IMG/VR virus record: IMGVR_UViG_3300032092_003271
Span: 32,920-96,919 of that record
Source of the DNA: a virus
Length of the DNA stretch: 64,000 nt
Direction: 5' to 3' (one strand)
This document shows positions 24,682 through 37,445 of this stretch, piece by piece. The number at the start of each line of letters is the position of its first letter. The first letter of the stretch is position 1. A program made the translations under genes and the position numbers. Below the pieces are notes generated by a model. It did not search any database and was not told where the DNA came from. It saw nothing but the letters and a program-made list of their open reading frames with translations.

Positions 24682-25386
24682 ATGGCATTTAATTATTCAC
24701 CTAAAATAGTTACAGATAGATTAGCCATGTATTTAGATGCGGCTAACACCAAATCATATGTTTCAGGTTCAACTACCGCCTATTCATTAACTGGATCGAT
24801 TAACGGTTCATTAATTAATGGAACAGGATATAGTAATATAAATGGAGGGGCTTGGAGGTTTGACGGTATAGATGATAGTATTTTTTATGGTCTTCAACCA
24901 ATTAACTTTAATCCCTCAACTCAACCTTTCTCTATGGGTGGATGGGCCAATTTACTTTCAACCGGAGGAAATGGAAATAGGGCCGTAATATTAGACATAT
25001 GCGGTACTAATACATCTCGTTTATATATTGCTATAGATAAAACTAATTTACGTTTGATTGTTGATATAAGACCACCTGCCGGAACAGTTTACGTTCCAGT
25101 ATCCGGTAATACAAATTCAATTTCATTAGGAAGATGGGTTTATGGTATGGTTACATTCGATGGGGGTACTATTAATTTATATCAAAATGGAGAATTAATT
25201 AGTACCGCAACTGGTTTTACTAATTACCCCGTTATAAATTACAATTGGTATAGCGGATTTCAAGATGATGATGACGCAGATATGAATGGATATATAAGTT
25301 CAGTCTCATTTTATCTAAAAACATTATCGGCATCAGAAGTTCTCCAAAACTATAACGCAATTAAATCACGATACGGATTATTATAA
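24682..25386 (+). CDS. LamG-like (concanavalin A-like) fibre-associated protein 1
   Basis: The 234-residue protein is a single LamG-type jelly roll: MYLDAANTKSYVSGSTT, then FDGIDDSIFYG, QPFSMGGWANL, GRWVYGMVTFDGGTINLYQNGELIS, and a C-terminal EVLQNYNAIKSRYGLL signature shared with the next two genes. Such domains commonly bind carbohydrate and occur at phage fibre ends. Its ATG follows the fibre stop by 1 base and its own stop overlaps the next start (TAATG). It may bind host glycans directly or associate with the collagen-like fibre (inference). Confidence 0.75.
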   Translation: MAFNYSPKIVTDRLAMYLDAANTKSYVSGSTTAYSLTGSINGSLINGTGYSNINGGAWRFDGIDDSIFYGLQPINFNPSTQPFSMGGWANLLSTGGNGNRAVILDICGTNTSRLYIAIDKTNLRLIVDIRPPAGTVYVPVSGNTNSISLGRWVYGMVTFDGGTINLYQNGELISTATGFTNYPVINYNWYSGFQDDDDADMNGYISSVSFYLKTLSASEVLQNYNAIKSRYGLL

Positions 25387-26114
25387 TGGCAGGAAGAATA
25401 ACATATTACGGTGCTGTAGTAAAAGACGGTCTTGTTTTAGATTTAGATGCCGCAAAACGTGATTCATATATTGGAAATGGAATTGTATGGACGGATGTTT
25501 CAGGATTCCAAAATATTGGTACGTTAACAAATGGACCTACATTTGATTCAAACAATGGGGGTAGTATTCTATTTGATGGTGTAGATGATGAGGTTCTTGT
25601 TGGTAATGACCGTTATACTATGGTTTCGGCAATGACTTGGGACATATGGGTTAAAAGAATTTCTGATGGAAATGTATTCAACATGATGATGAGTAATTTT
25701 ATGCCATATATGGCTTTCAGAGGGACTGATAGCGGCTCAGACATAAATAAATTTAATGTTGCATACCGTACAGTCACAGGAGTTACGACAACTCAAAGAA
25801 ATTTATTAACGACAGGCGCAACTTTTAGTAATAACATATGGTATAATTTTACTTACACTTTATTGTATGATTTACAAAATCAACTTGCAACCGCAAAAAT
25901 TTATGTTAACGGAGTATTCAACACGTCATCTTCAAATAACAGTGATTCAGTTTACCAACCATCTGTAGGTAGTAGATTACGTTTAGGTAACTATACGTCA
26001 AATCAATATCCGTTTCCTGGTAACATTAGTAATTTTAAAATCTATCATAAAATACTTTCAGACTCAGAAGTTCTCCAAAACTATAATGCACTAAAAGGGA
26101 GGTACGGACTATGA
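25386..26114 (+). CDS. LamG-like fibre-associated protein 2
   Basis: Second of three tandem paralogues, 242 residues. It has LVLDLDAAKRDSYIGNG, FDGVDDEVLVG, MTWDIWVKRISDG, a YVNGVFNTSSSNN hairpin and the C-terminal EVLQNYNALKGRYGL. Part of its sequence is identical at the DNA level, over 74 bases, to a LamG domain in the gene at 44.2-45.9 kb. Its start overlaps the upstream stop by 1 base and its stop overlaps the next start by 4, so the three are translated together. Carbohydrate binding is expected from the fold but not shown. Confidence 0.75.
   Translation: MAGRITYYGAVVKDGLVLDLDAAKRDSYIGNGIVWTDVSGFQNIGTLTNGPTFDSNNGGSILFDGVDDEVLVGNDRYTMVSAMTWDIWVKRISDGNVFNMMMSNFMPYMAFRGTDSGSDINKFNVAYRTVTGVTTTQRNLLTTGATFSNNIWYNFTYTLLYDLQNQLATAKIYVNGVFNTSSSNNSDSVYQPSVGSRLRLGNYTSNQYPFPGNISNFKIYHKILSDSEVLQNYNALKGRYGL
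25818..25891 (+). repeat. 74-bp perfect repeat, copy 1
   Basis: Identical over 74 bases to 44951-45024 although the flanking DNA has diverged. It encodes a LamG strand region. Recent gene conversion or recombination between fibre genes is the simplest explanation. Confidence 0.9.
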
Positions 26115-26821
26115 GTACTCTATCAGGTGGTCCTAATATTGTGACCAATGGGTTGGTATTGTATTTGGATGCTGCAAACCCAAATTCATATGTTTCCGGA
26201 TCAACTACTTGGAGAGATATTTCTCGTAGTGTAAATAATGGGACATTGATAAATGGACCTACATACAGCAGTGCTAATGGTGGATCTATCGTTTTTGATG
26301 GTTCGGATGATTATGTAAATTTAGGTGTTAATTTAAATAATATTTTTATTGGTTCCTCATTCACCGTAAATATGTGGGTTTCTATTTCTATTAATTTACC
26401 GGACGGCAACGGTTATTCTCTAATATCTAACTATAGTGGTGATATTCCAACAAATAATGGGTTTCAATTAGGTTGGAGAGGTGGTTTGGGGGACACCTTA
26501 TACGCTTTTGGGGATGGGTATTTATCTCGTACACTAGATAACGTCACAGGATTAACCTCCAATGTTTGGTACAATATTACTTTTGTATATGTGAGAAACA
26601 CGTCAGGAAACATTTATTTAGATGGTATAAATAAAACCAATAATTCATTTACGAATACAGTTAACGCACCAAACCAAAATTTAAAATTAGGTGTAAGATC
26701 CGATAATAATACTTTCCCATGGTATGGTAAGATGGCAATCACCCAAGTCTATAATCGTGCACTAAGTGATTCTGAAATTTTACAAAACTATAACGCAATT
26801 AAATCACGATTCGGAGTTTAA
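26111..26821 (+). CDS. LamG-like fibre-associated protein 3
   Basis: Third tandem paralogue, 236 residues. It shows LVLYLDAANPNSYVSGSTT, FDGSDDYVNLG, SFTVNMWVSI, GNIYLDGINKTNNSF and the C-terminal EILQNYNAIKSRFGV. The start overlaps the preceding stop (ATGA). Sequence between the three copies has diverged mostly in predicted loops, as expected if each recognises a different glycan (inference). After it comes a 99-base gap with a promoter-like motif and a hairpin. Confidence 0.75.
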   Translation: MSTLSGGPNIVTNGLVLYLDAANPNSYVSGSTTWRDISRSVNNGTLINGPTYSSANGGSIVFDGSDDYVNLGVNLNNIFIGSSFTVNMWVSISINLPDGNGYSLISNYSGDIPTNNGFQLGWRGGLGDTLYAFGDGYLSRTLDNVTGLTSNVWYNITFVYVRNTSGNIYLDGINKTNNSFTNTVNAPNQNLKLGVRSDNNTFPWYGKMAITQVYNRALSDSEILQNYNAIKSRFGV

Positions 26822-26920: not shown

Positions 26921-29062
26921 ATGGCAAATGAATTTGTTGCAAGGCGTGGTATAACATCTTTGGGTGGTATTACATTACCATATACGGGAGTAAGCTCCAC
27001 ATATACAATCAATACAAACAATTATTTCATTGATTGTACAAGTGGGACATTTACTGTCACCCTTCCGACTGCGGTTGGTATTGCGGGTCAAACTTTTATA
27101 ATAAAAAATAGCGGAGCAGGAACAATAACCGTTGCAACGACAGGTGGTCAAAGTATAGATGGGACTACAACAAAAACATTAACACAATACGAGTCAATAA
27201 CCGTACAAAGTGACGGATCCAATTGGGCTATTGGTAGTACCGCTGAAACGGGAGGATCGGCAATACCAGGTTCAAACAATCAACTATTAACTTCAGATGG
27301 TGCAGGTGGTGCGATTGCAGAATCATTATTAACGTTTGATGGTACAATTACGTCACCGTATTTAAATGTCAATTCAGTAAAAATCGGAAGGGGTAATAAC
27401 AATGTATCAACAAATATTTCAATTGGCGGGATTGCGTTTAGTTCTGGATCAACAGGGTGTAATAATACTGCGATAGGTTTAAATTCTCTTAGTGCTAACA
27501 CAACAGGATCTTTCAATATTGCGATAGGAGGATCCACTTTAAGCGCATCAACTATAGGTAATAGAAATATTGCAATTGGTCACCAATCTCTTCAATCAGG
27601 TGCCGGACTTTGTAATAACGTAGCGATTGGATATAAGTCAGGGGCTCGTTTAGGTAACAATCTCACTCCAACCGATAATATTTTTATTGGGTGTCAAGCT
27701 GGTTACGGTGCAAATACAGGAAATGTTAGTTTTGGTAATATATTATCTGATAATATTGCTATTGGCAAAAAAGCAGGATGTAGTATAGGAAGTAAATACA
27801 ATCCCTCAATATATTGTGGTAATAGTGGATATCCTGATTATATCAATGAGTATGCCCCGGGTTGGGCAACTAGTGGTAAAAATGTTTTTATAGGAAACTA
27901 CGCAGGACAAAATGCCACACCACCATCACCCTGTTCCCCAGCCGCAACAATAATAGGATATAATACGGCAATTGGTCATTGTTCAATGGCCTCTACCACA
28001 TATGGTAAATTAAATACTGCAATAGGATATGCATCTTTAAAATCTAATACCACAGGTAACTACAACGTAGCGATTGGGTTACATTCTCTTTGTTCTAATA
28101 CGTCGGGAAATTTAAACGTAGCAATAGGTACTTGTGCGTTACGTTTAAATACGACCGGAATTCAAAATAATGCGATGGGGTTTAGATCACTAGGAAAAAA
28201 TACATCCGGGCTTAGGAACACGGCAATAGGATATAATACTTTATACGCAAATACGACAGGTACTGATAACTTGGCACTTGGTCATCGTTCTTTATTATTT
28301 AACACTACGGGAGGTAATAACATTGGTTTAGGGGTTTATGCATTACGAAATAATACTACTGGAAACCGTAATACCGCAATAGGTTCAAACGCGTTACGGT
28401 GCAATACTACATGTTCAGATAACACAGCAATAGGGTACTTTGCTTTAGCTTCAAATGATATCTCAAATTTTAACACAGCTATAGGGTCCAATTCCCAAAG
28501 GAATTCCAGCACAGGTGGTGCTAATACTTCAATAGGAACGGATAGTTTAAGGTTTAACACAACAGGTGGTGGTAATAATGCAATAGGTTCCCGTGCTTTA
28601 TATGCTAACACAACAGGTGATGGTAATACAGCAATAGGTAGGAATACTTTATGTTCAAACACAACTGGATTTTTTAACGTAGCTATAGGATTTTATTCTT
28701 TAAATAAAAATACAAATGGCTCACGTAATATAGCAATAGGTAGAGATTCTTTATATGGAAGAACATCCAATTGTGATACAATTGCTATTGGATATAAGGC
28801 TTTTCGTGGTGGTGGTGGTCCATTTTTTCCTGATACTTGTACTACATCCCACAATATTGGTATTGGTGCATATGTAAATTTTGCATGTAATACAGTAGGT
28901 TCTGTTATTATAGGTAGATGTGCTACATCTACGGCAAGTAATCAATTTGTGATTGGTAGTACTACTAATATAGTAGGAGCCGTTACCACAGAAACTTGTT
29001 CTGCAACTAAAACATGGTCTGTAGTAATTAATGGAGTAGCACAAAAAATTCTACTTGCTTAA
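26921..29062 (+). CDS. Tail fibre with YadA-head-like NxAIG repeats
   Basis: A 713-residue trimeric-adhesin-like fibre. The N-terminal part (1-115) is a beta domain common to phage fibres (TFTVTLPTAVGIAGQTFIIKNSG). From about residue 165 to 615 it is built of 20 or more repeats of the type NTAIG-x-SL-x-NTTG-x-N-x-AIG, the pattern of YadA/trimeric-autotransporter heads, which form left-handed beta-rolls. The C-terminus (VIGSTTNIVGAVTTETC...) could be the trimerisation or attachment end. The repeats are rich in Asn and Thr, similar to autotransporter regions glycosylated by BAHT enzymes (family knowledge), and a BAHT-like domain is encoded 4 kb away. Confidence 0.8.
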   Translation: MANEFVARRGITSLGGITLPYTGVSSTYTINTNNYFIDCTSGTFTVTLPTAVGIAGQTFIIKNSGAGTITVATTGGQSIDGTTTKTLTQYESITVQSDGSNWAIGSTAETGGSAIPGSNNQLLTSDGAGGAIAESLLTFDGTITSPYLNVNSVKIGRGNNNVSTNISIGGIAFSSGSTGCNNTAIGLNSLSANTTGSFNIAIGGSTLSASTIGNRNIAIGHQSLQSGAGLCNNVAIGYKSGARLGNNLTPTDNIFIGCQAGYGANTGNVSFGNILSDNIAIGKKAGCSIGSKYNPSIYCGNSGYPDYINEYAPGWATSGKNVFIGNYAGQNATPPSPCSPAATIIGYNTAIGHCSMASTTYGKLNTAIGYASLKSNTTGNYNVAIGLHSLCSNTSGNLNVAIGTCALRLNTTGIQNNAMGFRSLGKNTSGLRNTAIGYNTLYANTTGTDNLALGHRSLLFNTTGGNNIGLGVYALRNNTTGNRNTAIGSNALRCNTTCSDNTAIGYFALASNDISNFNTAIGSNSQRNSSTGGANTSIGTDSLRFNTTGGGNNAIGSRALYANTTGDGNTAIGRNTLCSNTTGFFNVAIGFYSLNKNTNGSRNIAIGRDSLYGRTSNCDTIAIGYKAFRGGGGPFFPDTCTTSHNIGIGAYVNFACNTVGSVIIGRCATSTASNQFVIGSTTNIVGAVTTETCSATKTWSVVINGVAQKILLA
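27418..28760 (+). repeat. YadA-head-like protein repeats
   Basis: Degenerate repeats of roughly 23 to 24 codons with conserved AIG and NTTG. DNA copies are diverged, so this is an old expansion maintained at the protein level. Confidence 0.75.
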
Positions 29063-29120: not shown

Positions 29121-29942
29121 ATGGTGCAAAAAGTATTTTATAATCCATCCATGCCTAGAGCAGGATCAACCTTGATTCAAAACATTTTAATGCAAAATCC
29201 CGATATCTATTCAACCCCTACTTCAGGTGTAATTGAATTTTTATTGAATGCGAGATCAGTATATTCTGCGGGTGATTCATTTAGGGCTCAAGATCAGGAT
29301 GAAATGAAAAAAGGATTCAAAAATTTCTGCAAAACAGGACTATATGGTTTCTTTGACGGAATTACAGACCGTCCATACGTAATAGATAAGAGTAGATCGT
29401 GGTTAGGTCACTTTAACTTCATTGAGTTTTTTACGGATGAAAAACCAAAAATGATTGTTATGGTCCGTGATTTACGAGCAATATTTGCTTCAATGGAGAA
29501 AAATTTCCGTAAACACCCCGACAAAGACCCAATGATTATTAATGGTGTTGAATTAAAAAACATGACTACCGCCGCTCGAGTTGATCATTTTTCAATTTCT
29601 CCACCCATTGGTCCGTCTATTGAGTGGTTATCTGAGGCAATACATCAAGGAATAGATAAAGATATTTTATTTATAAGATTTGAAGATTTGACAGTGGATC
29701 CTGAAACTGAATTAATAAAAATCTATAATTATTTAGAACTACCATATTTTAAACATGACTTTAATAACGTAGAACAACTAACAAATGAAAATGATGTTAT
29801 ACATGGTATTTTTGGAGACCATAAAATTAAACCTCAAGTAAAACCTGTAAAGGATAATTTTATTGAAATTCTTGGAAAAGAACAATGTGATCGTTTACGA
29901 GAACATTATGATTGGTATTTTAGAGCCTTTAACTATATTTAA
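29121..29942 (+). CDS. PAPS-dependent sulfotransferase
   Basis: Predicted transfer of sulfate from PAPS to a hydroxyl of a glycan, or possibly tyrosine. The 273-residue protein has the 5'-phosphosulfate loop as MPRAGSTLIQ (11-20) and the 3'-phosphate motif as VMVRDLRAIFASM near residue 115, with IRFEDLTVDPE following. These define the Sulfotransfer family. It lies just upstream of an APS kinase gene and a nucleotidyltransferase gene, so the phage seems able to help make the sulfate donor. No membrane anchor or signal is present, so the acceptor would be cytoplasmic: a virion protein glycan or a precursor (inference). Confidence 0.85.
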   Translation: MVQKVFYNPSMPRAGSTLIQNILMQNPDIYSTPTSGVIEFLLNARSVYSAGDSFRAQDQDEMKKGFKNFCKTGLYGFFDGITDRPYVIDKSRSWLGHFNFIEFFTDEKPKMIVMVRDLRAIFASMEKNFRKHPDKDPMIINGVELKNMTTAARVDHFSISPPIGPSIEWLSEAIHQGIDKDILFIRFEDLTVDPETELIKIYNYLELPYFKHDFNNVEQLTNENDVIHGIFGDHKIKPQVKPVKDNFIEILGKEQCDRLREHYDWYFRAFNYI

Positions 29943-29949
29943 TATTTAT
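29943..29949 (+). promoter_or_regulatory. TATTTAT motif
   Basis: The copy ends 12 bases before an ATG and is directly after the sulfotransferase stop. All flanking genes point the same way, so it sits on the coding strand. Confidence 0.4.
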
Positions 29950-29961
29950 AAAAAAAACAAA

Positions 29962-30198
29962 ATGGAAGAAACACAAACAACAGAACAAGTGCAACAACAT
30001 ATTAGTGCGGCATTTGACTCGGTTAATTTAATTAACGAAGAAATCACTAAAGAAATGACCGATGAACGTAAAAACACAATAAAACGTAATGGTGATCATC
30101 TTGAAATTATGATGGCAAAAGGTTGGTTTTTATCGGGATGTACTGAACAACAGATTATCGATATTAATAATTCTATTACTACGTCAAAGTCGTATTAA
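29962..30198 (+). CDS. Small hypothetical protein
   Basis: A 78-residue, mostly helical acidic protein (EETQTTEQVQQHISAAFDSVN... IIDINNSITT). The ATG at 29962 is preferred to an upstream one that overlaps the sulfotransferase gene by 80 bases, and it follows a TATTTAT motif. No known family is recognised. Its position between sulfotransferase and GT9-like genes may be incidental. Confidence 0.55.
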   Translation: MEETQTTEQVQQHISAAFDSVNLINEEITKEMTDERKNTIKRNGDHLEIMMAKGWFLSGCTEQQIIDINNSITTSKSY

Positions 30199-30210
30199 AA
30201 AATATTATAA

Positions 30211-31089
30211 ATGGAAGAAAAATATTTAGTGTGGCATATTCAGGGAGGTTTAGGTAAGAATGTTGCTGCAACATCATTAATAGACTCTTTATCTGTAAAA
30301 TATTCAGATAGGAAGATAGTGATAGTGGCATCATATCCCGAAGTATTTTTGAATCAAGAAAACATTTATAGAGTATATGGTTTAGGTAACACTCAATATT
30401 TTTATGATGATTATATAAAGGATAAAGATACTTTAGTATTTAGACACGAACCTTATTATGAGACTAATCATATACTAAAAAATAAACATCTATTATCCAA
30501 TTGGTGCAAATTATTAGGTATTGATTATGATTTTCAAAAACCAAAGTTATCTTTTAATTTTGCACAAAAAAGAATGTCTTTAAAATGGAAACGAGAAAAA
30601 CCAATTTTTTTAATTCAAACAAACGGAGGATCAATGATGTCAGACCAAGAATATTCTTGGGCTAGAGATTTACCATTTTCTATTTCATTAGAGGTTGTAG
30701 AAAAGTTTAAGGAAACTCATCACGTTATTCAAATTTGTAAACCGTCTTCATTAAAAATACCCGGAGTAGAAGTGATAAGTGATAATATGTCATCAATGGA
30801 GTTATTTACATTACTTTCGGTGACAGACAAACGATTGTTAATTGATTCTAGTTTACAACATGTGGCAACAGCAATGAATTTACCATCAACCGTAATTTGG
30901 ATTGCCACATCACCGACAAATTTTGGATATTCAATGCATAATAATATAGTTGCAAATCCACCTTCAGGTAACGTTAAATTAATTGGTTCTTATCTTTTTG
31001 ATTATTCTTTTGATGGTTTACCTCATGAGTGCCCTTATTACAGTTTGGATGAAATGTTCGACATTGATAAAATATTAGAAAGTTTATAA
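30211..31089 (+). CDS. GT9-like (heptosyltransferase-fold) glycosyltransferase
   Basis: The 292-residue protein has the features of a GT-B enzyme of the heptosyltransferase type: an N-terminal HIQGGLGKNVAATSLIDSL strand-loop-helix typical of GT9, and a C-terminal region with LIDSSLQHVATAMNLPSTVIW, corresponding to the donor-site D-S-x-x-x-H-x-A-x-A motif. It lies within the sulfation module, 12 bases downstream of a small gene and 2 bases before the APS kinase gene. Substrate is unknown; ADP-heptose or another NDP-sugar would be in line with the family. Confidence 0.7.
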   Translation: MEEKYLVWHIQGGLGKNVAATSLIDSLSVKYSDRKIVIVASYPEVFLNQENIYRVYGLGNTQYFYDDYIKDKDTLVFRHEPYYETNHILKNKHLLSNWCKLLGIDYDFQKPKLSFNFAQKRMSLKWKREKPIFLIQTNGGSMMSDQEYSWARDLPFSISLEVVEKFKETHHVIQICKPSSLKIPGVEVISDNMSSMELFTLLSVTDKRLLIDSSLQHVATAMNLPSTVIWIATSPTNFGYSMHNNIVANPPSGNVKLIGSYLFDYSFDGLPHECPYYSLDEMFDIDKILESL

Positions 31090-31091
31090 TT

Positions 31092-31544
31092 ATGATATAT
31101 TGGTTTACAGGTCAGCCTGGTGCGGGAAAAACCTCAATCGCAAAATCCTTAATCGAAAAATTACCAAATAACACGTTCCATGTTGATGGTGACGATTTAA
31201 GAGAAATCTTTAATAACAAAGATTATAGTGAAACGGGTAGAAGAAAAAATATTGAGTTAGCTCAACACCTAACACATTTCTTACACAATAAAGGAAATAA
31301 TGTTTTGGTTAGTTTGGTTTCACCGTATAGAGATCAAAGAGAAGACTTTAAAAATAAATTAAATGGGTCTATAATTGAGATATATGTCCATACTGAACAT
31401 ATAAGAGGACGGGAAGATTTCCGTGTCAAAAATTATGAAGAACCTATTGATAATTTTTTAGATATGGATACATCTGATGTTCTAATAGAAACATGTGTTA
31501 ATCAAATTCTAAATTATGAAAAATTACATAGCAAAGGCGGATAA
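31092..31544 (+). CDS. cysC: Adenylylsulfate (APS) kinase
   Basis: Phosphorylates APS to PAPS, the donor used by sulfotransferases. At 150 residues it is compact for CysC. It has the P-loop GQPGAGKT (7-14), the FHVDGDDLRE substrate segment (29-38), NIELAQHLTHFLHNKGNNVLV, and the VSLVSPYRDQRE motif. EIYVHTEHIRGREDFR follows, as in the family lid region. Upstream is a sulfotransferase, downstream a nucleotidyltransferase that overlaps its last 29 bases. Alternatives such as another small-molecule kinase are unlikely given the motif set. Confidence 0.88.
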   Translation: MIYWFTGQPGAGKTSIAKSLIEKLPNNTFHVDGDDLREIFNNKDYSETGRRKNIELAQHLTHFLHNKGNNVLVSLVSPYRDQREDFKNKLNGSIIEIYVHTEHIRGREDFRVKNYEEPIDNFLDMDTSDVLIETCVNQILNYEKLHSKGG

Positions 31545-31914
31545 AAAAACATCATCCACTGATAGACAATATTCTATGTTTGTGGGGCGATGGCAGCCCC
31601 TTCATTTAGGACATCAATGGTTATTTAACCAAGCTTTAGAAGAAGGTAAGAATGTTCTAATTTGTATTAGAGATGTTAAACCTGACGAAAAAAATCCTTT
31701 TACGCCTGAAGAGGTAAAATCTAATATAGAAAACCATTATGGTAATTTAATAACACAAGAACGTGTTAAAGTTATTGTGATTCCTGATATTGAGTCAATC
31801 AATTATGGTAGAGGCGTTGGTTATGATATTATCGAACATGTACCACCCCAAGATATTCACGATATTTCAGCCACTAAAGTTAGAGAACAAATGAGACAGG
31901 AGGGTAAGTTATGA
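31516..31914 (+). CDS. HIGH-type nucleotidyltransferase next to APS kinase
   Basis: A 132-residue nucleotidyltransferase with FVGRWQPLHLGHQWL (HLGH at 30-33) and ISATKVREQ (117-125), the two signatures of the cytidylyltransferase/NMNAT/ATP-sulfurylase superfamily. The start overlaps cysC by 29 bases; an internal ATG at residue 21 would also retain the core motif. Its tight coupling to cysC suggests a role in the same pathway, for example forming APS from ATP and sulfate, but NMN or other substrates are equally allowed by these motifs. It is not full-length ATP sulfurylase. Confidence 0.65.
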   Translation: MKNYIAKADKKTSSTDRQYSMFVGRWQPLHLGHQWLFNQALEEGKNVLICIRDVKPDEKNPFTPEEVKSNIENHYGNLITQERVKVIVIPDIESINYGRGVGYDIIEHVPPQDIHDISATKVREQMRQEGKL

Positions 31915-32354
31915 AAGAAAAAATAAAAAAATTCCAAATTAGATTTAACGTTAATAGCACATCTGAAATTGATCGATGGAGATTAATTACTGATGGTGAT
32001 GAAAAATTGGTTAAAGATATTATAATTGATGGTCACACCTACACTTCTATGGATTGGATGGAGGATATTAATGAATACAAATGGCATGTTAGTTGTGAAG
32101 GTTATGTAACAATAACTAACAATGTTGCATATGTTGTAACCGTAAAAGAAGATGCTGCTATGGTTAGACACATATTAAAAACAATCTCTTATCGTTTTTT
32201 AGGTACTTTAACAACGATTGTTACAGCGTATTCGTTAGGAGTTTCTTTAGAGTTGTCATCTTTATTAGGTATTGGTGAACTCATGATAAAACCAGTTATG
32301 TACTTCTTCCACGAAAGAATTTGGTATAAGTATGTAAGAATAGGTAATAAATAA
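31911..32354 (+). CDS. DUF2061-type small membrane protein with extra N-terminal domain
   Basis: A 147-residue protein. Residues about 86-140 match DUF2061 (AMVRHILKTISYRFLGTLTTIVTAYSLG... ELMIKPVMYFFHERIWYK), with two probable membrane helices separated by a short acidic turn. Residues 1-80 form a soluble domain with a conserved-looking DRWRLITDGDEKLV segment that I do not recognise. DUF2061 genes are often found near sulfate-activation genes in bacteria (from memory, not checked). The gene overlaps its upstream neighbour by 4 bases and its stop directly abuts the stop of the convergent 930-residue gene. Confidence 0.68.
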   Translation: MKEKIKKFQIRFNVNSTSEIDRWRLITDGDEKLVKDIIIDGHTYTSMDWMEDINEYKWHVSCEGYVTITNNVAYVVTVKEDAAMVRHILKTISYRFLGTLTTIVTAYSLGVSLELSSLLGIGELMIKPVMYFFHERIWYKYVRIGNK

Positions 32355-35147
32355 TTACCTATTATCAATATATAAATTTACTTCACTATAATACTCAATA
32401 AAGTGATCGTTCCATAGATCCCACTTTATATCAATACCATCAACTGAAAATACTTGATGGTTTGTAAATTCCTTTAAATATAAATCTCTAAACTTTCTAA
32501 ATTTGTTTTTGGTTTCTTTATTATGAAGATGCCACTCACCTGAGATTTTTTTAACATTGTTTTTAATCCAATTAAAGTTTTCTTCCGTAAAGATATTATA
32601 TTCACCACCTTCAGAATCTGTTTTAAGAAAATCAATTTTAGTAATACCATGTTCTTTAATTAAAGAATCAAATCTAACTGAATCCATTTGTGTTTGTACA
32701 CCAAGTTCTGCAGTAAACATATTACCCGTGTTTACAACCCCATCAGTGTCGGTAATTCCTTTATTAATGTGAACTACAAAATCTTTGTTTGTGTTTTTAA
32801 CTAAGTATGGGAACTCCTCATCACAAGGTTCAATAGAATAAATTACCGAAGGTTTTTTGTTTAATATAGAATATGTGAATGGACCAATACTTGCACCAAT
32901 GTCCATAACAACATCACCTTCTTCTACGGTAAAAAACTTCTCATAAATTCGTTCCTCAAAGATTTCTTTATTAATTGCCCATCTAAACCAATCATTAGAT
33001 TTACCCCAATCAAAATCAATTCTATCCCCAAGTAGTAAGTCAATTTTATCTATGACCATTTGTGATGTTATATTTTTGGTGCACTCAAATTGACGACTTG
33101 TGTTTTTATGTAGTGGACACCAATACCAATCACCAGCATCAAATTTTTCTTTATTAAAACATCCGTGACATACGTTCTCATTAATCACTCGATGAACTCC
33201 TGTTAACATCTCAGCGTTTTTTTCACTAAATCCTGAAATCAAAATTAAAGGTAATCCTGTAGACCATGCCAACCAAGATAATCCTGAACCTAAACCAATG
33301 AAGAATTCACAAGTTGCAAGATCATCAATTACTTCTTGAATTGATCCACCCTTAAATTTAGTTGCTCCATTTGGATTTTTGTTACCCATATATCCACTAT
33401 CTTCTTTTGAATATATCATAACTTCGTATCCTTTGTCTGTTAGATACTTAACCACTTCTTCCCAACCCAAAAGGTTGTTCCAATATTTTGATTGTGCCGT
33501 TGAATGGACCCCAATACCAATTTTCTTTTTCTTTGGTACCTTAGGTATTTTTAATTTTGGTTTCACTTCATTATAAGGTAACCCTAAAATATCAGACGCA
33601 GTTTGTTGTAATGGTATGTGTCTAAAATCATTTGGGTGTAAACTATAATTAACATTATCACCATCAAAGAACCAACCTATTTTATACAACGCATATAAAT
33701 CGTGTACTGGTTCACCAGGGTTTATAAATTTTATTTGTGGATATTGATCAATAAACAACTCATTCATAAATGTAGAAACAATCAATTCACAATTATGTTT
33801 TTTTCTAAACTCCTCACATTGTGGGAACCAAGCCATTGTATCGCCTAATGATTTAGATTCAAGTGCAATATAGACTCTTTTCTTGTTAAAGTTTGGTACG
33901 TGTTCGTAAACTAATTCATCTCCATCAAAAACTTTACAAGTAATATTTTTAAAATACTCAACAATAAGTTTTGACCACATATTTGCCTTAATCTCAGATT
34001 GATACATTAAATTATTTAAATCCCAAAACTCGACTCTATATAATTTTTGTGAACTACCTTTAATATCGATAGTTGGGTTACCAACAAAATGAAAACTAAA
34101 ACTTACATTATCTCTTGGTTCTTTATGCGTAATTTCAGTTTCTTCAAATGTTTTTATGTAAAGATTTTTGGTATCTTCGGATCTATAATGTTTATTGATT
34201 ATTTTAACTGACTTATAGATATCGATTAATCTTTTTGTTATTATCGACCAATCAAAATCAATCCTTGTTTCTATGGTTTCATGAAATAACTTACCCCAAT
34301 TTTCAATAACATATTTAAGACCACTAACTACTGACTCGGTGGATCTTCCAATCTTTCTTAATCCACCTATTTTTGGTGTTCCATCGTAAGTACCAACTGT
34401 TGGTAGTCCACATGACATAGCTTCTAATAATGTTAGATTAGGGTGTCCCGCTTCTAAAATCGATGGGTGTGCAAATATGGTATGTGATCGATATAATTCT
34501 CTTATTGATTCTTCGTCAGGGTTTCCATAAACCACATTTAACTTTTTATATTCTAATAAGTCAGGGTTAGCATCAAAAAAGTTTTTGTTGTTATCAGGAC
34601 CCGCAACTGTAATCTCAAGATCTAATTCTTTTGCTGCTTCTATGGCATATCTAAAACCTTTTCTATCAATTGATTGGTTATATGCAAAACCATTATTTGC
34701 AAGACATAATATTTTATGATTGAGCGATCCTTTTGGGTTTTGGTTATCAAAAAAATTAGTATCAACACCATGAGACAAATAAAATAATTTATCAGTTTCA
34801 ACAAAATAATCTACCAAAAATTCCGCATGACAAAATGATATAACAGAATTCTTTATTGCTTTTAAATTTAAATTATAAAGATCCGATTCTCTTCCATATT
34901 CAACAACGTGATGATCATGTAAAGAGAAAATATATGGTATTCCCATTTCATGGGCCTCAATAGCCAAGTTTGCAACATGGATATGAATTATGTCTGAGTT
35001 TCTATCTACTTCACTTAAATATTTAATTTCAGACTCATGACCTTGTTCTATTGAGTTTAAGTGGTAATTCCAAATTACCTTTTCAATTGCCCCCCAACCA
35101 TTTGGTGGTATTGCTATTAAACCTGGTGTTACTTGTGTTATCTTCAT
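32355..35147 (-). CDS. GT4-like + BAHT-like O-heptosyltransferase + FkbM methyltransferase fusion
   Basis: A 930-residue three-part enzyme. Residues 1-320 are a GT-B family 4-like domain (HPSILEAGHPNLTLLEAMSCG near 227-247). Residues about 420-710 match bacterial autotransporter heptosyltransferases (Aah/TibC): VYIALESKSLGDTMAWFP, IGVHSTAQSKYWNN, FIGLGSGLSWLAWS and four cysteines at 660, 663, 677 and 689 in the family's metal-binding finger order (CHGC...WCP...FEC). Residues about 740-930 are an FkbM-type SAM methyltransferase (VMDIGASIGPF, FLKTDSEGGEY). BAHT enzymes transfer heptose to Ser on autotransporter repeats. Here repeat fibres are encoded nearby, so self-fibre glycosylation is proposed (inference). 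It is the last gene of its operon. Confidence 0.82.
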   Translation of the reverse strand: MKITQVTPGLIAIPPNGWGAIEKVIWNYHLNSIEQGHESEIKYLSEVDRNSDIIHIHVANLAIEAHEMGIPYIFSLHDHHVVEYGRESDLYNLNLKAIKNSVISFCHAEFLVDYFVETDKLFYLSHGVDTNFFDNQNPKGSLNHKILCLANNGFAYNQSIDRKGFRYAIEAAKELDLEITVAGPDNNKNFFDANPDLLEYKKLNVVYGNPDEESIRELYRSHTIFAHPSILEAGHPNLTLLEAMSCGLPTVGTYDGTPKIGGLRKIGRSTESVVSGLKYVIENWGKLFHETIETRIDFDWSIITKRLIDIYKSVKIINKHYRSEDTKNLYIKTFEETEITHKEPRDNVSFSFHFVGNPTIDIKGSSQKLYRVEFWDLNNLMYQSEIKANMWSKLIVEYFKNITCKVFDGDELVYEHVPNFNKKRVYIALESKSLGDTMAWFPQCEEFRKKHNCELIVSTFMNELFIDQYPQIKFINPGEPVHDLYALYKIGWFFDGDNVNYSLHPNDFRHIPLQQTASDILGLPYNEVKPKLKIPKVPKKKKIGIGVHSTAQSKYWNNLLGWEEVVKYLTDKGYEVMIYSKEDSGYMGNKNPNGATKFKGGSIQEVIDDLATCEFFIGLGSGLSWLAWSTGLPLILISGFSEKNAEMLTGVHRVINENVCHGCFNKEKFDAGDWYWCPLHKNTSRQFECTKNITSQMVIDKIDLLLGDRIDFDWGKSNDWFRWAINKEIFEERIYEKFFTVEEGDVVMDIGASIGPFTYSILNKKPSVIYSIEPCDEEFPYLVKNTNKDFVVHINKGITDTDGVVNTGNMFTAELGVQTQMDSVRFDSLIKEHGITKIDFLKTDSEGGEYNIFTEENFNWIKNNVKKISGEWHLHNKETKNKFRKFRDLYLKEFTNHQVFSVDGIDIKWDLWNDHFIEYYSEVNLYIDNR

Positions 35148-35148
35148 A

Positions 35149-36870
35149 TTATGTAAATTCTAAATAACCGTATATGTTTTTATTTTCCATTTCATATAAA
35201 AACTCATCAGTTTCTGAGTTATATACTTTTATTTTTTTAATATTCTCCCAATAGATATTATATGACCACGCCCAAGAATAATTAAGGTAATGTATTATCT
35301 CTTCTTCATGATTATCAAATTCTATTATTATTTTTCTAATAACTCTATGGTTATTATAGTTAAATGATAAAATAGCTAAAGAATCTTGATTGTTAACTTT
35401 ATAAATTTTTGTGGTACAACCTTCATAAAACTCAGCTAAAGTTGATTGACTTGTTTCTGTATTCCACATTGTGTTAGGAAAATCTAAATTCATTTGGTCA
35501 CTACCATACTTACTTAAAATTAAATTGGTATTTGAATTCATTAGATTATGGAACATATAAACCTCTACTGATTTAAACTCATCACCAAATCCGTTATTTT
35601 TTAAATATTTTTTATATGATTCTTCACTATCAACTCTATTTATTTTTTCTAAAAAGAAATCAATTTCTGAGAAAAAATAATGAAAAGATATATCTTTTTC
35701 ATTAAAATAAAATAACGATTTTTTATTTTCGTTTTTACATAGTTCAGGAATTGTTTTCATAAATTCATATGATTCATCAGAAAACAAATCATCAACTTCC
35801 ATTCTTTGGAAATGTGTGTACCCAAGTGATTTTGCTAAATCCAAACAATTAAATAGATTACACATTACTGATAACCCATGTCTTTGTAATTCGGGAGTGA
35901 CTTCATGAATAGTAAATCCTTCATACGATTTCCATAGATCAACATAACTTACATTTTCATATTGTTCTTTAAACAATTTGTTTTCACTATTATATAAAAA
36001 ATAATCAACTTGTTCTATAAGATCTTGTGGTGGAACTTTATTAGAAACTAAAAGAATTTTATGATCGTGTTTTTTTAAATTACTAATTGCATCTCTAAGT
36101 TTAGATAATAAAGAATCATTGGATACAAAGCAATCTATAATTGTAATTGTTTTAATGTTTTTATTATAATCTTCTTTTAATCTATTTTTTACTTTGTTAA
36201 TATTTAATTCTTTTTCTTCCTCCGATAATGTTGAGAATATTCCTTTTTTAGAAATTCTGTAGTGACCCCCAAATATGTTTAAAAATTTTATTTTACCTTG
36301 TTTACTCAATTCATAATTAAGTGGCCAATCAACAAAAGGTAATCCCTCAAAATATTTTTTTATTATATTTTTTTTATTCCTAAAAACCCTACCAAAACCA
36401 ACATAATTAGTTTCTAATAAATCTTCAGTTGTAATATCTTCTTTTAGTGAAATTATAAATGCATCTTCTTCTTTAGGTGATGCATAATCTTCGTATAGAT
36501 ATTTTGTCGCAGTAAAAGTCATTACGTAGTCTGTGTTTTCATCTAAAAAATCAACCTGTTTTTGTAATTTATCTTTATCACCAAACAAATCATCACCATC
36601 TAAATACGCAATATATTCTGATTCAGAATTATCTAAAAGTAGTTTTATATTATTAAGAGCACCTAAATTTTCAGACCCATCCAAAATTTTAATTTCAGGG
36701 TATTTTAATTTTAATTCATTTAATTTTTCTTGAGTTTTATCAGTTGAGTTATCATCTCTAATTATAACATCAAAATCAAAATTAGTTTTTTGTTTAAAAA
36801 TTGAGTCGATACAATCAAAGACGTATTGTTCAAAATTATATAATGGTACTATAACTGATAATTTTTTCAT
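35149..36870 (-). CDS. GT2 glycosyltransferase with second GT-A-like domain
   Basis: The N-terminal part of this 573-residue protein is a classical family 2 domain: LSVIVPLYNFEQYV, IIRDDNSTDKTQ and YLDGDDLFGD (D91-x-D93-D94). From about residue 240 a second domain starts with TITIIDCFVSNDSLL and includes HFQRMEVDDLF, which looks like another GT-A acidic site (D-D near a strand). The C-terminal 100 residues are beta-rich and Trp/Tyr-rich, as in carbohydrate-binding ends. It overlaps the NeuD/PglD-like gene by 4 bases. Donors are unknown. Confidence 0.75.
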   Translation of the reverse strand: MKKLSVIVPLYNFEQYVFDCIDSIFKQKTNFDFDVIIRDDNSTDKTQEKLNELKLKYPEIKILDGSENLGALNNIKLLLDNSESEYIAYLDGDDLFGDKDKLQKQVDFLDENTDYVMTFTATKYLYEDYASPKEEDAFIISLKEDITTEDLLETNYVGFGRVFRNKKNIIKKYFEGLPFVDWPLNYELSKQGKIKFLNIFGGHYRISKKGIFSTLSEEEKELNINKVKNRLKEDYNKNIKTITIIDCFVSNDSLLSKLRDAISNLKKHDHKILLVSNKVPPQDLIEQVDYFLYNSENKLFKEQYENVSYVDLWKSYEGFTIHEVTPELQRHGLSVMCNLFNCLDLAKSLGYTHFQRMEVDDLFSDESYEFMKTIPELCKNENKKSLFYFNEKDISFHYFFSEIDFFLEKINRVDSEESYKKYLKNNGFGDEFKSVEVYMFHNLMNSNTNLILSKYGSDQMNLDFPNTMWNTETSQSTLAEFYEGCTTKIYKVNNQDSLAILSFNYNNHRVIRKIIIEFDNHEEEIIHYLNYSWAWSYNIYWENIKKIKVYNSETDEFLYEMENKNIYGYLEFT

Positions 36871-37445
36871 TTATATATTTTTTTTGCAGGGACACCAACG
36901 TATGTTCCAGGTTCGTTTATATTCGATACTACTGCAGCACCCATACCTATTGTGGATAATGAATGGACACTAATTTTTTCTCTAATAGATGAATTATTTC
37001 CCATATAGACACAATCATATATTTTAACATTACCGGAAACTATTGATCCTGGCATCATAGAAAAATAATCACCTATTTCACAATCATGACCAATTTGGTT
37101 TCCCCTATTTAATAATGCGTGTTTACCAATTTTTATGTTTGTTGTTATTATTGAATTTGCTCCAATAAAAGAACCTTCACCAATTTTGACATCATCAGAT
37201 ATGATTGCGGTTGGGTGTATCCATGTGAAATATTTTGTATTTTTTGGTAATCTATTTGCAACGTCAAATCTATTTTTTGGGTCAGCAATTGCTATGATTA
37301 TTTCATATTCTTTGGTGTTAAATTCTGACAATGGTTTTGTGTGTTCATTAACATATTGGTCATCAACAAAACAAGTAATCTTTTCCCCCATCTGAAACAT
37401 AACCTCTCTTGCGTGGCCTCCATAACCTATCAGTGCTTTTTTCAT
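36867..37445 (-). CDS. NeuD/PglD-like sugar acyltransferase
   Basis: The 192-residue protein has the PglD_N Rossmann-like start LIGYGGHAREV (5-15) and a left-handed beta-helix made of hexapeptides (IGEGSFIGANSIITTNIKIGKHA). The catalytic His is placed at H120 in GNQIGHDCEIGD, as in the PglD family, and the end GVPAKKIYK is typical. Such enzymes acetylate amino-sugar nucleotides (PglD on UDP-4-amino-sugars) or sialic acid derivatives. The start of the downstream GT2 gene overlaps its stop. Together with the WlbB-like gene it gives the phage two sugar acyltransferases. Confidence 0.85.
   Translation of the reverse strand: MKKALIGYGGHAREVMFQMGEKITCFVDDQYVNEHTKPLSEFNTKEYEIIIAIADPKNRFDVANRLPKNTKYFTWIHPTAIISDDVKIGEGSFIGANSIITTNIKIGKHALLNRGNQIGHDCEIGDYFSMMPGSIVSGNVKIYDCVYMGNNSSIREKISVHSLSTIGMGAAVVSNINEPGTYVGVPAKKIYK

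Follow-up and report, generated by a model that had tools for sequence, protein, structure and literature searches.

A phage gene cluster predicted to make and use PAPS, with a small nucleotidyltransferase as candidate APS-forming enzyme

Gene content of the cluster

The window analysed here is a 64,000-nucleotide stretch of viral DNA, corresponding to bases 32920–96919 of the 96,919-base uncultured tailed-phage record IMGVR_UViG_3300032092_003271. On its plus strand, positions 29121–32354 encode a sulfotransferase (ST), a minimal adenosine 5′-phosphosulfate (APS) kinase, a nucleotidyltransferase (NT) of the HIGH superfamily and a small membrane protein of the DUF2061 family. The interpretation favoured here, held with slightly better than even confidence, is that these genes form a whole module that makes and uses 3′-phosphoadenosine 5′-phosphosulfate (PAPS), in which NT would form APS and the DUF2061 protein would act as a membrane partner.

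The cluster begins with the predicted PAPS-dependent ST of 273 residues (29121–29942; Sulfotransfer_3 at 4.7e-13 and Sulfotransfer_1, PF00685, at 1.9e-10). The kinase (31092–31544; 150 residues, with a short lid) matches APS_kinase (PF01583) at 2e-17, NT (31516–31914; 132 residues) matches CTP_transf_like at 1.3e-6, and the DUF2061 protein (31911–32354) carries its domain at residues 88–138 (1.9e-13), behind an N-terminal extension of approximately 87 residues. In a Pfam profile search of the window, all four open reading frames (ORFs) are open and each scores above the cut-off of its own family. The kinase and NT genes overlap by 29 nucleotides, and the NT and DUF2061 genes by four. An earlier note on this DNA had named these four genes and reported overlaps between the last three, and both observations stand, whereas two genes lying between ST and the kinase had been missed. 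The first is a small conserved ORF of approximately 78 residues (approximately 29962–30198, plus strand), whose start is placed at an internal ATG, the listed frame (29863–30198) having a TTG start. It matched no family in the Pfam profile search, and its homologues lie near ST in most ST-bearing viral loci. The second (30211–31089, plus strand; 292 residues) encodes a GT9-like, heptosyltransferase-type protein with a weak match to Glyco_transf_9 (19.1 bits, below the cut-off of 22); in related loci, it stands either before or after the trio of kinase, NT and DUF2061 genes.

The sulfotransferase and the minimal APS kinase

ST reaches 50.3 bits against a Sulfotransfer_3 (PF13469) cut-off of 27. 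The earlier note credited ST with PAPS-binding motifs, and these are borne out by alignment: the residues of the 5′ motif (Pro12, Arg13, Gly15, Ser16 and Thr17) and of the 3′ motif (Arg116-x7-Ser124) are invariant in 18 viral relatives.

The kinase scores 64.1 bits against the PF01583 gathering cut-off of 21.1. Its score against the NCBIfam apsK equivalog (TIGR00455) is 70.6 bits, below the cut-off of 138.7, and by that curated rule it is a divergent relative. Residues Gly7, Gly12, Lys13, Asp32, Gly33, Asp34, Arg37, Arg50, Asn53 and Pro78 stay invariant when canonical enzymes are aligned with the kinase, which keeps the P-loop, the DGDxxR and SPY motifs, and the arginine and asparagine of the substrate motif. 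An AlphaFold2 model of the kinase has a predicted local distance difference test score (pLDDT) of 91.9. The best 30 matches of this model in the PDB are all APS kinases or bifunctional forms, with Z scores of 17.3–21.6 over 132–150 aligned residues, and the next match is a gluconate kinase (Z 16.1). APS kinase is thus the best assignment for this predicted enzyme, despite the missed equivalog cut-off.

Recurrence of the cluster in viruses

Viral loci were drawn from the best 80 of 390 relatives of the kinase in IMG/VR, and neighbours were counted within 6-kb flanks; these loci are only partly independent, several contigs being near-duplicates. NT was present in 80/80 of the kinase loci, DUF2061 in 70/80 and ST in 40/80. 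Seeding the search from NT recovered the kinase in 76 of 78 loci, seeding from DUF2061 recovered NT in 71 of 78, and seeding from ST recovered the full trio in 39 of 80. The kinase precedes NT on one strand in 156/156 loci, the two genes overlapping by a median of 27 nucleotides, and the ST and GT9 genes shift position around the trio among related loci. This arrangement is far beyond chance. From the linkage counts and the mobility of ST and GT9, the kinase and NT are the core of the cluster, DUF2061 is a frequent third member and ST is a common but separable user. Relatives of the kinase and of DUF2061 are nearly absent from a collection of isolated phages.

In one virus (L250, 5416–6432), a canonical APS kinase gene lies downstream of sulfotransferase-like ORFs and is itself followed by a DUF2061 gene of the same type, with no NT. 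The minimal kinase plus NT and an ordinary APS kinase appear to be interchangeable, possibly through a module swap.

Motifs and fold of the nucleotidyltransferase

NT reaches 29.1 bits against the CTP_transf_like cut-off of 21, and 17.2 bits against the Sat family of ATP sulfurylases (PF01747), which has a gathering cut-off of 24.3. NT proteins comprise 113–136 residues, compared with approximately 380 for Sat, and the N-terminal domain of Sat is missing from them. In Sat, the HXXH motif, the GRD loop and the SGTxxR motif bind substrates (PMC3779200). The order HxxH, GR and S[AG]TxxR is found in 49/49 NT and 13/13 Sat sequences, with different spacings, and the loop of NT reads GRG in most sequences and GRD in some. 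The QTRNP loop of Sat is not present in NT, which has GRWQP in its place. On the strength of the sub-cut-off Pfam score, the lack of an RNP loop and a profile alignment confined to the last motif, NT is judged by its sequence not to be a member of the Sat family; the proposal is that NT works like Sat, not that it is a Sat.

The HIGH, GR and SxTxxR positions are invariant across the 49 NT sequences, which suggests that NT is catalytic. This conservation bears on a different proposal, in which the host supplies the APS that the kinase turns into PAPS, and NT, as its partner, is not catalytic or plays a regulatory part, such as sensing sulfate or APS. Such a role would suit virus L250, where a canonical APS kinase and DUF2061 occur without NT, as well as the Microvirga fusion described below, which occurs together with CysDN and in which the GR and SxTxxR residues of NT have been lost. 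It fits poorly with the invariant motifs and with the scarcity of known ATP sulfurylases in cellular genomes that carry NT, and is regarded as quite unlikely.

The structural model of NT is of moderate quality (pLDDT 79.9). Its fold matches include phosphopantetheine adenylyltransferase (PPAT; Z 9.6), nicotinamide mononucleotide (NMN) adenylyltransferase (NMNAT; Z 7) and ATP sulfurylase 1v47 (Z 6.5; 94 residues, root-mean-square deviation 4.2). The predicted structure is a HIGH fold, and these matches fail to separate the three enzyme types. By sequence, the nearest proteins to NT are NadM-type NMN adenylyltransferases (2qjo, E 5.5e-8). NT may therefore be another nucleotidyltransferase, of the NMN, sugar-phosphate or alcohol-phosphate type; the kinase and NT would then activate some small molecule other than sulfate with which glycans are decorated, and ST would have become their neighbour by cassette shuffling. 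This alternative is considered unlikely. NT scores only 38 bits where one curated NMN adenylyltransferase (NadM/NadR) family requires 409, and 35.4 bits where another requires 127, and the cellular gene arrangements set out in the next section also bear on it.

NT outside viruses

A search of 84,980 species genomes for NT relatives outside viruses returned 18, mostly from Marinimicrobia. A kinase gene lies directly before NT in most of the 18 genomes, and in two Marinimicrobia loci (L089 and L096) the preceding gene encodes a full canonical APS kinase. Sulfotransferases (L089, L086 and L082) and polysaccharide genes are among the neighbours of NT in Marinimicrobia. A conserved pair of genes for an aminotransferase of class IV and a Sulfotransfer_5 protein also occurs near the Marinimicrobia kinase–NT locus (L089:1110–2745; L131:80–1701), and in one Marinimicrobia genome (L099, G018) NT is spread over two frames, through a frameshift or a sequencing error.

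Among these 18 genomes, which are incomplete, Sat is missing from 16 and CysD from all 18. TIGR02039 detected no CysD in them, and matches to PF01507 were rejected as CysD, being weak and located in frames of 370–522 residues. Complementarity was assessed in 150 genomes of the same class, with a strong NT match required and the minimal kinase counted as an APS kinase. Each of the 13 strong-NT genomes has an APS-kinase-family gene and lacks both Sat and CysD; among NT-less genomes with an APS kinase, 72 of 74 have Sat or CysD (Fisher p 1e-13, kinship ignored).

In haloarchaeal plasmids, a single protein annotated as cysC consists of a complete APS kinase (E ~1e-44, with an FTG lid) followed by NT, and the NT part is 40–46% identical to Marinimicrobia NT. 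Nine such fusions were matched, and in each of the five regions inspected a sulfotransferase gene lies just upstream of the fusion. A gene of the YqcI/YcgG family usually stands beside the haloarchaeal sulfotransferase and cysC–NT genes (L143–L146 and L148). The most fitting reading of NT, as a domain fused to an APS kinase and paired with a sulfotransferase, is that it forms the APS in a two-part PAPS synthase. A substrate other than sulfate is harder to reconcile with this fusion, or with the canonical APS kinase beside NT in Marinimicrobia. The same is true of a divergent kinase–NT fusion in Microvirga (one case), which lies between a sulfotransferase and CysD–CysN, and whose NT part is without the GR and SxTxxR residues.

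Further divergent kinase–NT pairs or fusions (phrog_10255), in which N-A-D replaces D-G-D, occur in Stenotrophomonas phages (L135 and L136) and in contigs of metagenome-assembled genomes (L129 and L130); their substrate may differ. The position of such pairs beside a HAD gene (L130), and in isolated phages away from sulfotransferases, is in keeping with activation of a non-sulfate molecule.

Several observations weigh against APS formation by NT within a sulfation module, in addition to its closeness to NMN adenylyltransferases. Global homology between Sat and NT is not claimed, as hhalign aligned only 19 columns (probability 8), comprising the SGTxxR stretch alone. The window kinase is without the canonical DPKGLYKKA/FTG lid and has a short RGRExFHV segment instead. 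Two of the NT genomes (G008 and G013) also have Sat. The complementarity count is uncorrected for shared descent, the NT genomes are all small (0.7–1.0 Mb), and a canonical APS kinase is present in only one of the 13 (G015), the others being counted through minimal kinases. Sulfotransferases do not discriminate, since PF13469 is found in 113/150 genomes of the class, many without any APS kinase. In viruses, 38 of 80 ST-seeded loci lack the trio, and the fused kinase–NT genes of the Stenotrophomonas phages (L135:4590–5321; L136:4584–5324) lie among replication genes with no listed sulfotransferase.

On balance, the fusion and the phyletic pattern make it probable that NT provides the APS on which the kinase acts. 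The earlier note had gone no further than a HIGH-type nucleotidyltransferase; that family assignment is sound, and it is the probable APS-forming role, together with the link between DUF2061 and sulfate activation, that had been overlooked.

DUF2061 and sulfate activation

The window protein scores 51 bits against the DUF2061 (PF09834) gathering cut-off of 23.1, and has a hydrophobic stretch at approximately residues 97–133. In two Microvirga plasmids (L147:7734–9323; L390:3393–5231), CysN carries a C-terminal DUF2061 domain. Similarly, in the nod cluster of a Mesorhizobium huakuii nod plasmid (L385, 4008–8248), DUF2061 lies between a sulfotransferase and cysD–cysN, and the same DUF2061 occurs on four other Mesorhizobium plasmids. 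DUF2061 is also found apart from sulfate-activation genes, and the link to sulfate activation therefore holds for some members of the family.

No sulfur role was seen for the DUF2061 neighbourhood of Marinoscillum: the genes of CysN and CysD size encode a 2-oxoacid dehydrogenase subunit and a formyltransferase, and a gene of the TauE-type sulfite exporter family lies near. In the open-licence literature, no description of DUF2061 in sulfation was found; four papers there name the family, never in a title or abstract.

Proposed pathway and candidate acceptor

NT is proposed to catalyse the formation of APS from ATP and sulfate, the reaction of ATP sulfurylase, although it is a far smaller protein. 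APS would then be phosphorylated to PAPS by the minimal kinase encoded next to it. With PAPS as donor, ST would sulfate an acceptor; the likeliest is a glycan of the phage fibre or the host surface, built by the glycosyltransferases encoded nearby. The DUF2061 protein may be the partner of the activation enzymes at the membrane, possibly tethering them. That PAPS is supplied for sulfation has good support from the gene neighbourhoods of viruses, Marinimicrobia, haloarchaea and rhizobia, in agreement with the earlier suggestion of a raised PAPS supply coupled to ST.

Published surveys class phage cysC under assimilatory sulfate reduction (PMC10914622; PMC12713726), and on that precedent the cluster would be an auxiliary metabolic set for cysteine supply. 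The whole record contains no gene of the PAPS reductase family (PF01507), which also covers CysD-like proteins, and the neighbours of the cluster are a sulfotransferase, fibres and glycosyltransferases; assimilation was rejected on the absence of PF01507 and is very improbable. Profile searches of the whole record were likewise negative for Sat, CysD and CysN.

A fibre or surface glycan is favoured as the candidate sulfated target, given the fibre genes upstream, the glycosyltransferases alongside and a stretch of a Rhodoferax ferrireducens T118 plasmid. In this prophage-like Rhodoferax stretch (L392:2519–4582), genes for tail-fibre assembly, a sulfotransferase and an ‘adenylyl-sulfate kinase’ are consecutive and overlapping; the latter is of the divergent type. 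Upstream of the window cluster lie tail-fibre and virion proteins. Directly preceding ST is a repetitive, tail spike- or fibre-like virion protein (26921–29062, plus strand; phrog_6002 at 3.1e-68, phrog_4636 at 1.3e-64), which contains many short NTAIG-type repeats, and opposite-strand ORFs in this region look like repeat artefacts. Further upstream, three tandem related proteins (24682–26821) appear LamG-like by eye. On the other side, the Pfam search placed three glycan genes on the minus strand, convergent with the cluster: a GT1/GT9/FkbM protein (32355–35147), a GT2 protein (35149–36870) and a PglD-like protein (36867–37445).

Significance

To our knowledge, the ATP sulfurylase reaction is known from two protein types only. 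The analysis leans, by a little over an even chance, towards NT as a third kind of ATP sulfurylase of approximately 110 residues, distinct from Sat and CysDN, which together with APS kinase would supply PAPS for sulfation in uncultured phages, streamlined marine bacteria and haloarchaea, with DUF2061 as membrane partner. Should NT form APS, it would be very small for an enzyme of this kind, and would supply the first step of sulfate activation, otherwise missing, in organisms with an APS kinase and no known ATP sulfurylase. Furthermore, phage cysC, which is widely counted as a sulfur-assimilation gene, would be a sulfation gene in these phages, and metagenomic evidence on viral sulfur metabolism would be read differently. 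The little-studied DUF2061 family would gain a concrete pathway, and sulfated phage or host glycans would become a directly testable idea.

Comparison with known systems

PAPS supply and sulfotransfer are already known, while novelty would lie in a small APS-forming enzyme and in DUF2061 as its partner. The open-licence literature yielded no account of an APS kinase next to or fused to NT. Phage cysC genes recovered with COBRA from freshwater metagenomes were reported as sulfate assimilation genes (PMC10914622); these are likewise phage-encoded genes of the APS kinase family, common in lakes and large phages, and the text of that study makes no mention of a nucleotidyltransferase or DUF2061. 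The function of phage sulfotransferases has been termed unclear (PMC10580990). Those of the cyanophages S-SCSM1, S-SRM01 and S-SKS1 are homologous to ST, at 26–27% identity, but these phages have no match to the kinase or DUF2061 at E 1e-5.

NadM-type NMN adenylyltransferase, the closest enzyme to NT by sequence, shares with it the HIGH fold and a final SGTxxR-like motif. NT differs in being shorter, in scoring far below the family cut-offs, in its GR(G/D)VGY loop and in its linkage to APS kinase.

PAPS synthetase, a fusion of Sat and APS kinase (PAPSS1; Aquifex 2gks), and adjacent sat–apsK genes perform the same two steps, from ATP and sulfate to APS and then PAPS, with the activities joined or adjacent. 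The kinase of PAPS synthetase is of the same family and fold as the window kinase, which is shorter and without the usual lid. The proposed first enzyme, by contrast, is a HIGH protein of 110–136 residues that has neither the N-terminal domain nor the RNP loop of Sat and scores below the family cut-off.

Rhizobial Nod-factor sulfation by NodP–NodQ–NodH resembles the window cluster in that sulfate-activation genes adjoin a glycan-decorating sulfotransferase. The rhizobial system uses CysD/CysN, with no NT in the Mesorhizobium nod stretch, and DUF2061 lies within the nod sulfation gene group of Mesorhizobium, as it does in the phage cluster.

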